DNA of 64,000 nt from Geomonas sp. RF6. Lineage in GTDB: Bacteria; Desulfobacterota; Desulfuromonadia; Geobacterales; Geobacteraceae. The translations under genes and the position numbers were made by a program. The notes under the pieces were generated by a model. The model saw only the letters and a list, made by a program, of their open reading frames with translations. It was not told the origin of the DNA and searched no databases. Location: positions 2,497,001 through 2,561,000 of the forward strand of contig NZ_CP087999.1 of assembly GCF_021044625.1 (NCBI RefSeq). The letters are read 5' to 3'. This document shows, one piece after another, positions 45,361 to 55,048 of the stretch (position 1 is the first letter of the stretch; each line of letters starts with the position of its first letter).

Positions 45361-45395
45361 AAAAGGGGTAACGAGCGATCGTTGCCCCTTTTTTT
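45361..45395 (+). terminator. Rho-independent terminator after cytochrome c7
   Basis: A stem of GGGGTAACGA with TCGTTGCCCC and a short loop is followed by TTTTTTT. Confidence 0.88.
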
Positions 45396-45411
45396 ATGGA
45401 TCTTTCGGTCA

Positions 45412-45497
45412 TTCCGTTGCTGGAAACGGTTGAGGTTCTCCGGATGTGCCAGCAAAGAGCAAATCCCCCCTGTCCCCCCTTCGCAAAGGGGGGGACG
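45412..45497. repeat. 3' remnant of a second DUF559 unit with its palindrome
   Basis: The sequence from GTTGCTGGAAACGG to GGATGTGCCAGCAAA matches the 3' end of the DUF559 gene at about 46467-46520, with small deletions. It runs into the same palindrome (CCCCCCTTCGCAAAGGGGGG, 45459-45497). It is therefore a truncated copy of the downstream element. Confidence 0.75.
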
Positions 45498-45627
45498 TAA
45501 CGGCCTCGCCTCGCCCTTCGAGGGAAGACCATACCGGCTCCGGCATTCACCAATGAGCGGCCACGACGAGTATCGTGGCTCCGCGGGATTTAGGAAAAAG
45601 CCCTTTGCCACTTCGGAACGTGTGCCT

Positions 45628-46091
45628 GTGGTCGCGTGCACTAAAGTCGTGGTGGCGTGCACCGAAGCTCGTGGTGGCGAGCACCGAAGCTCGTGTTCGC
45701 ATGGACGAAGTTCGTGGTAGCGTGGACGAAGCTGGTGGTCGCGTGGACGAAGCTCGTGGTCGCGTGGACGAAGCTCGTGGTCGCGTGCACGAAGCTGGTG
45801 GTCGCGTGCACGAAGCTGGTGGTCGCGTGGGCGAAGCTCGTGGTCGCGTGGACGAAGCTCGTGGTCGCGTGGGCGAAGCTCGTGGTCGCGTGGACGAAGC
45901 TCGTGGTCGCGTGGACGAAGCTGGTGGTTGCGTGCACGAAGCTTGTAGTCGCGTGGACGAAGCTTGTAGTCGCGTGCACGAAGCTCGTGGTCGCGTGGAC
46001 GAAGCTGGTGGTTGCATGGACAGAGCTGGTGTTCCCGTGCACGAAGCTGGTGGTCGCATGCACCAAGCTGCTGGTCGCATGGACGAAGCTC
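45628..46091. repeat. 21-bp minisatellite, about 22 copies
   Basis: The unit GTGGTCGCGTGG-ACGAAGCTC is repeated about 22 times; the second and third units have 22 bases, the rest 21, with variation mainly at GTGG/GTGC/GTGGGC and CTC/CTG. Because the period is a multiple of three, at least four reading frames stay open through the array; the plus frame is continuous with the DUF559 gene (VDEARGR repeats). I regard the array as non-coding by default. Confidence 0.9.
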
Positions 46092-46114
46092 GTTATACTT
46101 CGACGAGGCGGTGC

Positions 46115-46165
46115 AGGAGACCTAGAGTTCCCCCCTTTGCGAAGGGGGGACAGGGGGGATTTGCC
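46115..46165. repeat. 5' palindrome of the DUF559 unit (family 2)
   Basis: After GCAGGAGACCTAGAG comes the palindrome CCCCCCTTTGCGAAGGGGGG (46130-46149) and ACAGGGGGGATTTGCC. The same order of sequences recurs at about 54548-54600, and the 3' copies (45459-45497 and 46532-46569) are inverted. Confidence 0.8.
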
Positions 46166-46573
46166 TTGGTTCGGCCTTACGACCACCACTTGAAGGGACC
46201 ATCCCGCAAGCTGCGCAAGCAGATGACAGATGCTGAGCGACTGCTCTGGTCTCATCTACGGGGCAAGCAACTTCTTGGCGTCCAGTTCAACCGGCAGAAA
46301 TCACTCGGCCCCTATGTCGTTGATTTCTACGCTGCCTCACCCCTGCTGGTGATTGAGCTGGATGGCAGCCAGCACCTCCAGGATGAGAATGTCAAAAGTG
46401 ATGCTGCCCGTGACTCCTTTCTTCTGGAACAGGGGTTGATGGTGCTTAGATTCGACGACCGGCAGGTGTTGCTGGAAACGGCTGCGGTTCTGGAAGAGAT
46501 ATTTCGGATGTGCCAGCAAAGGGTAACAAGAGCAAATCCCCCCTGTCCCCCCTTCGCAAAGGGGGGGACGTAA
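46166..46573 (+). CDS. DUF559 endonuclease-like protein
   Basis: DUF559 proteins have a restriction-endonuclease-like fold related to Vsr mismatch endonucleases. The 135-residue product shows the family core: PYDHHLKGPSRKLRKQMTDAE, LLWSHLRGKQLLGVQFNRQ, then the nuclease signature YVVDFYAASPLLVIELDGSQH and LRFDDRQVL. A TTG start at 46166 fits the family; upstream the frame runs through the 21-bp repeats. The last residues (PPCPPFAKGGT) are encoded by the 3' palindrome. The gene with its inverted flanking palindromes looks like a discrete dispersed unit. Confidence 0.8.
   Translation: MVRPYDHHLKGPSRKLRKQMTDAERLLWSHLRGKQLLGVQFNRQKSLGPYVVDFYAASPLLVIELDGSQHLQDENVKSDAARDSFLLEQGLMVLRFDDRQVLLETAAVLEEIFRMCQQRVTRANPPCPPFAKGGT
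46532..46569. repeat. 3' palindrome of the DUF559 unit (family 2)
   Basis: GCAAATCCCCCCTGTCCC is followed by CCCTTCGCAAAGGGGGGGACG, the inverse of the copy at 46130-46165. It overlaps the end of the DUF559 coding frame. Confidence 0.85.
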
Positions 46574-46822
46574 GGTCACCTGTAGCCGTTAGTGCGAAAT
46601 GGTCGAAACTGCCCGGATTTGTCCGATGAACCTGCGTAAACAGCACACGCCTCGCCTGCTCGCTAACCCGTCCAGCGACGCCAAGACATTCCTCCCTGAA
46701 GCCGCCCATCCCGCGCCGCTCCATCCCGCCTTACGTTAGAAAATATTATTTTGCGCTTGCCTGCAATTTGACTATAATGCGCACTTGCTTTTTTGTGACA
46801 TGACTCTTACCGGGAGACTGCC

Positions 46823-54080: not shown

Positions 54081-55048
54081 AAACGACTCGAACACCCACC
54101 GCAAAGCCGCACCAGTGTACACTGCTTTTGTTTTATCCGCAGATTACACAGATTCGCGCAGATTATTATCTCGCACGTTCAACGGACCCTGTCATGTTGT
54201 AACAGCGACGGATGGGCAACGGATCCAACGATTACTGCAGGAGCGATTGGAAAGATCAGGTTTTTAAGGGTGGCAAGAAAAATCCGCAAAGTAGGCACAA
54301 GGGATAAGGCACCTGCACGGGAATCAAAAGCTAAAACATGAACACCCACCGCAAAGCCGCAAAGGGCGCAAAGGAAAATCCGCAAAGAAACCCGCCGTCG
54401 CGTGGGCGGACCGCGGTGGTCTTTTTGGGTGCACACTGGTTCAGCCGGCAATGACATGTAGTGGGAAGGACTAACGAGGCTATAGCGTTCCATGCGAAGG
54501 TTCATTCCGGAATTCGGTGGAGCGTGGGTACATTGCCACGAAGCACTGCAGGAGGCCTAACGTCCCCCCCTTTGCGAAGGGGGGACAGGGGGGATTTGCC
54601 CTTCTAGGCACTTCTCCTTAACCCCGGATGAAGCACACCTTCAGGATCATCCTTCCTTTGCGCGCAGTTCTTTGCGTCCTTTGCGTCTTTGCGGTGGGTG
54701 TTCAAAAGGCGGAGGCGATTCCAACCAAGCCTAAACTCGGAGCACCCACCGCAAAGTCGCAAAGACCGCAAAGGAAAATCCGCAAAGTAGGCTTCCAGGG
54801 GAAAAAGTGATGTCTGCGCAGGTCCGCTGATCGCTGATGTATTCTTGATCAGTGCAGGGGAGGTGAAGATCACACCGTTCGAGGAATCCGAACAAAAGCC
54901 CCCTCAGACCTGACCTTCCTTTGCGCGCAGTTCTTTGCGTCCTTTGCGCCTTTGCGGTGGGTGTTCAGCCTTTTTTGCGTTGGGTGTACCGCCGTTTTGT
55001 CTACATTTTTAATTGATTCCTGAGATCGATTATTGTAGTGTTCAGCGA
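54081..55048. repeat. repeat-filled intergenic region (CGCAAAG arrays and a DUF559-unit 5' end)
   Basis: CGCAAAG-type arrays occur near 54340-54390, 54655-54700, 54745-54790 and 54910-54965. Between them, at about 54548-54600, lies a second copy of the DUF559-unit 5' end: GCAGGAGGCCTAACG, then CCCCCCTTTGCGAAGGGGGG and ACAGGGGGGATTTGCC, with no DUF559 gene following. I see no coding frame in this kilobase. Confidence 0.7.

Follow-up and report, generated by a model that had tools for sequence, protein, structure and literature searches.

The window analysed here, a stretch of 64,000 nt, corresponds to bases 2497001–2561000 of the single-contig 5.26 Mb genome of Geomonas sp. RF6. At 46114–46582, it contains a DUF559 gene placed between two inverted copies of the stem-loop CCCCCCTTTGCGAAGGGGGG, each carrying ACAGGGGGGATTTG on its gene side (Table 1). 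The inverted arms (46114–46171 and 46525–46582) are 58 nt long and 86% complementary. The G tail of the left copy, AGGGGGGA, appears to occupy the position expected of a ribosome-binding site. No left outer end was recognised for the intact unit, and a 21-bp tandem repeat array adjoins it on that side. This array lies between the two DUF559 copies, comprises 18 registers that are about 85–92% alike in its middle part, and leaves several reading frames uninterrupted. Neighbouring genes (purE, cytochrome c7, and resB) were named by reading their translations.

Table 1. Features of the DUF559 unit, its incomplete copies and their surroundings (positions within the window)
Feature	Position	Strand	Basis or remark
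Hairpin and T-run resembling a terminator, belonging to the upstream c-type cytochrome gene; the insertion starts right after it	45361–45397	+	by eye
Outer end GGATCTTTCGGTCATTCCG of the truncated copy	45398–45416	+	by eye; resembles the outer-end consensus
Truncated copy: 3' end of a DUF559 gene and right palindrome	45416–45500	+	92%, 81%, and 100% identical to the intact 3' end
21-bp tandem repeat array adjoining the left side of the intact unit	45601–46114	+	not recognised as belonging to the element family
Left end of the intact unit: inner arm, stem-loop, G tail	46114–46164	+	sequence comparison
DUF559 nuclease gene, 135 aa, TTG start inferred	46166–46573	+	stop codon and protein tail encoded inside the right palindrome copy
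Right end of the intact unit, an inverted copy of its left end, with G tail, stem-loop and tag	46525–46582	+	arm comparison
Right outer end CCCGGATTTGTCCGATGAACC of the intact unit	46612–46632	+	script and by eye
Isolated, gene-less left end from another unit, with outer end, arm, stem-loop and G tail	54499–54599	+	sequence comparison

The truncated copy is identical to the intact unit in direct orientation at 46 of 46 positions (45455–45500 versus 46528–46573), with coding homology before its palindrome at 45416–45462 (identities in Table 1). An exact palindrome lies at 54575–54598, within a lone 5' end at 54548–54600. The initial annotation had described a palindrome-bounded unit, a truncated 3' end of a second unit upstream and a gene-less 5' end, and all three were borne out. 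The homology that it had noticed past the palindromes reaches further than it saw: the arms continue past the palindrome for about 70 nt, as far as an outer end like GGTTCATCCGGGAATTCCGGGG. Single-strand folding z-scores of four window palindromes were weak (−0.5 to −2.0); G/C-rich shuffles also fold.

The window protein was assigned to DUF559 (PF04480) with an E-value of 4e-33 and 114 bits against a Pfam gathering cut-off of 20.6. This was the sole family above its cut-off, and no Y1/HUH transposase was found inside the unit. An alignment of 18 domains, including that of the window protein, possessed 22 invariant columns. A profile search of the PDB yielded 3hrl (E 6e-35) as well as, with an E-value of 7.5e-4, the homing endonuclease I-Bth0305I (3r3p). 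The AlphaFold model (mean pLDDT 80, pTM 0.73) matched 3hrl and I-Bth0305I as well (TMt 0.90 and 0.80), and its matches to Vsr were weak (TMt 0.41 and 0.46; E 0.19 and 0.53). Based on the profile and model matches, the window protein is likely a nuclease of the I-Bth0305I/Vsr-like fold. Profile matches to toxin B-subunits (E 0.03 and worse) were taken as chance. PADLOC reported a partial DpdF match (E 3.6e-6).

We measured the abundance of the window palindrome in the genome using a 24-nt pattern comprising a palindrome half and its tail. With up to three mismatches allowed, 98 and 92 copies (190 in total) were detected on the two strands, and the same pattern read backwards yielded none. Among the 100 palindrome places listed, 87 were exact. 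We inspected 3–10 kb around most of the exact places, leaving out six late in the list, and found 36 inverted pairs, the window unit included, plus 43 distinct copies occurring singly (up to four substitutions); the lone window copy at 54575 is outside this count. The window unit excepted, spacing within the pairs ranged from 178 to 274 bp. For all 35 short pairs, alignment of the interior to the window DUF559 gene outscored every one of 100 dinucleotide shuffles (z 4.5 to 18.3), with the better of two orientations being compared to shuffles in one orientation. The orientation varied between pairs. The short pairs are internally deleted copies of the gene-bearing unit that kept its ends. In this, all 35 are like MITEs, which are short, non-autonomous and inverted-ended and arise when a coding element loses its interior; the pattern is also REPIN-like. 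Groups among the 35 derivatives resemble each other, so the derivatives are not independent. The same resemblance means that a deleted form has multiplied, and multiplication of this kind implies trans-acting help. At the ends, which are degenerate and often abut other copies, no target-site duplication was recognised by eye.

The outer end was recognised in 63 of 115 arms. Forty of these ends abutted half a palindrome (with up to four substitutions in 14), seven abutted a T-run and 16 neither; at random positions, a T-run was found in 266 of 9200 cases (2.9%). Junctions with half palindromes would be expected if units insert into palindromes, if palindromes recombine with each other, or if stem-loops are replaced in the way described for IS1272 (PMC5678879).

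The insertion in the window starts just past the terminator of the cytochrome gene. In a relative (locus L303), a matching terminator is followed by native spacer, whereas in the window the element takes the place of the spacer (by eye). Among the 29 loci kept from relatives with a match, the gap between the cytochrome gene and resB was 160–217 bp in 26, and in the remaining three the cytochrome gene was absent beside resB; the gap is about 1.49 kb here. The gap in the relatives is an empty site, albeit one read across genera and with the 21-bp array also filling part of the gap here. In L303, a decayed palindrome cluster was seen at 780–900 between purE and the cytochrome gene, i.e., one gene upstream of the latter, not downstream.

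One of the nearest relatives of the window protein (82% identical; locus L260 of genome G030) has the same stem type on both sides of its gene. It is located at 4.14 Mb, about 175 kb away from the resB locus of that genome (3.97 Mb), where the gap is empty (177 bp). Of the close DUF559 relatives, some are syntenic and others share no flank of at least 150 bp. That whole units have been copied or moved, as proposed initially, is thus supported by the deletion derivatives, by the empty sites for which a search in relatives had been suggested, and by the position of L260.

Several further candidates were considered as evidence of movement. The loci L238 and L245, which come from two genomes of one genus and encode 95% identical proteins with no shared flank of at least 150 bp, were dropped as proof since shorter repeat pieces are shared on the same contig. 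The E. coli gene ycjD, covered to at least 80% in 3333 of 5426 genomes, provided no clean empty site because the three ycjD-less strains opened carry efflux genes after sapF. For S. meliloti pSymB, one of 158 records reached at least 80% query cover and no empty site was read, and the g15 search returned mainly repeats and no clean empty site. On three Deinococcus plasmids from three species (L278, L279, and L356), DUF559 genes were seen at three different junctions of the hpa catabolic cluster; this is suggestive only, since gene order may differ for other reasons. Two full DUF559 domains were found in tandem on one strand of G019 contig 32 (4727–5564), about 190 bp apart, possibly as a double insertion.

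The Geomonas genome contains three DUF559 places. At the second (L002), the gene is enclosed precisely by two inverted copies of another palindrome, CGTCCCCTCCCTTTCAAGGGGAGGG, each differing from this sequence by one base. This palindrome was detected in 52 and 65 copies on the two strands (117 in total, up to three mismatches; control 0), and close head-to-head dimers with CGTC outside were present in 10 of the 30 loci opened. The third place (L001) has an upstream stem-loop of yet another type, for which flank scores revealed no matching downstream partner.

We assessed the generality of the inverted flanks in 172 DUF559 loci, comprising the three above, 89 from relatives and 80 named ones. 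The relatives' loci were mostly best-scoring places (the strong places G032:C44 and G096:C26 were left out), and the named loci were the best 80 of at least 577 confirmed, which biases them towards A1, the query of 18 rows that was made from the first group of loci. By record title, the named loci belonged to Pseudomonadota, Deltaproteobacteria, Bacteroidetes, Chlorobi, Chloroflexi, Nitrospirota, Bacillota and others. We compared up to 250 bp of the upstream flank with the inverted downstream flank (score ≥14), dropping eight loci with short or N-containing flanks. Inverted flanks were detected at 124 of the 164 usable loci versus six of 1638 equal-length random windows from the same loci. When ORF ends were used as anchors, they were detected at 77 of 159 DUF559 ORFs versus one of 391 other ORFs. 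These controls replaced an earlier one based on flanks of different loci, in which between-locus matches often scored as high as within-locus ones because the loci share palindrome types. DUF559 genes are thus often bounded by matching inverted palindromes, and the observation made in the window is general. The proposed check on DUF559 genes elsewhere gave a mixed outcome, with inverted flanks at these 124 loci and flanks below the threshold at the other 40.

Twelve named loci were also chosen by hand among the 42 matching records of a plasmid collection. Seven of them scored at least 20: S. meliloti (64), D. psychrotolerans (55), D. proteolyticus (47), Sphingobium (27), A. lipoferum (25), Sphingomonas (24), and Deinococcus NW-56 (20). 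The other five (N. gonorrhoeae, E. coli ycjD, Synechocystis, Picosynechococcus, and Photobacterium) scored 7 to 11, with palindromes nonetheless visible nearby by eye. The recurring architecture across DUF559 loci consisted of a C-run stem, a short loop, 1–4 nt and a second G run. In the 50 loci with clear tails on both sides, both tails faced the gene in 33, and the tails were mixed in 13 and outward in four. The three nucleotides outside the stem were RYY in 81 of 136 arms.

Next, we related palindrome type to nuclease clade. Six stem classes, defined by regular expressions written after viewing the flanks, typed 146 of the 172 loci; the 26 untyped loci, including L002, were excluded. On a maximum-likelihood tree of DUF559 (quick search), the typed loci required 16 type changes versus a minimum of 72 in 200 shuffles. 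The Geomonas and relatives' loci alone (86 rows) required nine versus a shuffle minimum of 46. When labels were permuted within genomes, at least 21 changes were needed, and none of 300 permutations reached the observed nine. Two or more typed loci were present in 24 genomes, and of the 32 pairs that these provided within a genome, 28 differed in type. The tree counts and the within-genome permutation indicate that the palindrome follows the nuclease, not the genome.

Palindrome abundance was also compared between genomes with and without DUF559, by counting two stem patterns with no mismatches in 97 genomes. The median number of copies was 11 in the 73 genomes with DUF559 and two in the 24 without (Mann–Whitney p = 8e-4). 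Type-2 copies had a median of 40 in the 10 genomes with a type-2 stem beside DUF559 versus five in the 49 others examined, and type-4 copies a median of 16 in the 13 genomes with a type-4 stem beside DUF559 versus four in 46 others. The flanking copies themselves are part of all these counts, which take no account of relatedness. Palindromes are therefore rarer where DUF559 is lacking, as the initial annotation required, but they are present there too: two DUF559-free genomes still hold 46 and 53. Type-A palindromes numbered 0 to 108 in 20 named genomes (control 0); these counts, made without reference to the other DUF559 genes of those genomes, were not used as evidence.

Taken together, the unit is probably a mobile element of about 0.5 kb with a single gene, which encodes a DUF559 nuclease of the Vsr/EDxHD fold, and with clade-specific inverted stem-loop ends bearing a G-rich tail; the nuclease most likely recognises and opens the ends, and the host copies the unit into hairpins. 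In such a process, the nuclease would recognise its own stem-loop ends and matching hairpins elsewhere and would open them by a nick or a double-strand break. Host repair or replication would then copy the unit, or a gene-less derivative that kept the ends, in the manner of homing. The targets would be intergenic hairpins such as terminators and older palindromes.

The initial annotation had suggested, by analogy with REP sequences and RAYTs, that the nuclease may mobilise the palindromes. We infer the same, and the analogy is strengthened by the pairing of nuclease clade and palindrome. The reading we favour makes DUF559 nucleases the dedicated enzymes of minimal mobile elements of a REP-like kind, which are analogous to the RAYT/REP system and not members of it. 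Several observations weigh against this reading: the 40 loci with flanks below the threshold, the five low-scoring named loci, the palindromes kept by two DUF559-free genomes, the lack of a recognised target duplication, the limited share of loci with both tails facing the gene (33 of 50), the mutual resemblance of the 35 derivatives, the absence of a relatedness correction from the presence and absence counts, and the role proposed for a Caulobacter DUF559 protein (PMC12907096). More tentatively, we consider it possible that they represent a second, bacterium-wide kind of REP: autonomous elements of about 0.5 kb whose sole enzyme, a nuclease of the Vsr/EDxHD fold, would open the hairpins at the element's ends, home into other hairpins (terminators and older copies), and act in trans to move gene-less derivatives.

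Alternatively, the palindromes could be mobilised by RAYT/Y1 transposases encoded elsewhere, with DUF559 as a passenger. REPs are thought to be moved by RAYTs, according to passages of a 2013 survey (PMC3733652), and Y1_Tnp genes were detected in 52 of the 58 genomes searched, including six in the Geomonas genome. However, when 20 hand-picked Y1 loci (L336–L355; three of these six and 17 others) were analysed by the same flank method (score ≥16), 16 possessed inverted terminal repeats of other sequence, mostly GGGTCA-like, and a DUF559-type palindrome occurred in the flanks of just one (L355, class E; side not recorded). The method thus recovers the terminal repeats of another element class, and the Y1 and DUF559 systems differ in their ends. 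Nor would a passenger role account for palindrome type tracking the DUF559 clade within genomes, and we regard it as very unlikely.

In a second alternative, DUF559 could be a Vsr-like mismatch-repair or defence nuclease whose flanks are REP-like because short genes occupy repeat-rich intergenic hot spots. The predicted fold would suit such an enzyme, the Vsr matches themselves being weak, and a Caulobacter DUF559 protein has been proposed as a Vsr-type mismatch repair enzyme, as stated in excerpts of that work (PMC12907096). Yet inverted flanks were found at just one of the 391 other ORFs in the same loci; the gene-less pairs are, moreover, remnants of the DUF559 gene itself in every case, and the clade-specific pairing is left unexplained. 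We consider this explanation unlikely. Quite unlikely, in our estimate, is that the units are relics of an ancient mobile family that now spreads just by replication slippage and recombination between palindromes, the nuclease having been domesticated. The derivatives are eroded, the outer ends abutting half palindromes are obtainable by recombination, and several gene loci are syntenic between species, all of which would suit relics. Against this stand the predominance of exact copies among the listed palindrome places, the retention by the window protein of all the invariant columns, and the presence of related nucleases of the same type at unrelated places.

The reading of the units as nuclease-driven mobile elements places them beside several known systems. 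As in RAYT/REP systems and REPINs, inverted stem-loop ends surround one small nuclease gene, gene-less inverted pairs are dispersed in high copy number, and enzyme and palindrome are cognate. The DUF559 enzyme differs from RAYTs in having a predicted PD-(D/E)XK/Vsr fold, not HUH/Y1, its units have a G-rich tail with no GTAG tag seen, and the window-family derivatives differ from REPINs in still carrying gene remnants.

CGTC-tagged REPs are said to lack a dedicated transposase, and passages of the same survey leave open which enzyme moves non-GTAG REPs (Di Nocera et al. 2013, PMC3733652). Like the DUF559 units, they are stem-loops, many of them in head-to-head dimers, as far as these passages describe them. 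For the tag itself (CGTC, or TGTC/CCTC, at one end), the observations differ between families: CGTC lies outside the palindromes of the L002-matching family, TGTC/CGTC outside the S. meliloti unit, and CGTY outside the window family, but GTC directly outside the stem was found in just 13 of 136 DUF559 arms. The survey passages define an 8–9 bp stem starting with AT and mostly a CCA tail, whereas DUF559 stems have a C-run and a G tail. Classic AT-type CGTC REPs were found on both sides of none of the 172 loci and were therefore rejected as the DUF559 partner. Despite the similar dimer layout, we did not file the DUF559 elements under CGTC REPs because this sequence definition mostly failed.

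In the sampled genomes, DUF559 genes are widespread, as are intergenic palindromes rich in G/C, and both are poorly explained. Linking the two offers a testable role for the DUF559 family and a candidate enzyme for the palindromes, and the cognate pairing makes a version of the question about the enzyme of non-GTAG REPs directly testable. The link would also add a nuclease superfamily to the enzymes of minimal mobile elements, beside HUH (RAYT) and DDE. We found no connection between DUF559 and REP-like palindromes in the open-access library searched, with most subscription journals and all of bioRxiv outside the search, and a search by palindrome letters returned no bacterial-repeat paper by title among the matches listed. 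Passages of two papers on Geobacter genomes report many multicopy sequences, some of them palindromic, and discuss them as regulation (IHF/HU sites) rather than in relation to a nuclease (PMC2996986, PMC2700814).

The remaining resemblances concern target and fold. IS1272, a classical IS of greater length, uses another transposase. It inserts into inverted repeats, with no target duplication reported in the passages cited here (PMC5678879), so the resemblance is to a possible target habit only. The EDxHD homing endonucleases, represented by I-Bth0305I, probably share the nuclease fold, judging from the profile and model matches given above. DUF559 units differ from them by their inverted palindromic ends and gene-less derivatives; EDxHD homing endonucleases sit in introns or inteins. 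Among other structures, Toxoplasma mitoribosomal large-subunit proteins matched the DUF559 fold model with a TMq of about 0.55.
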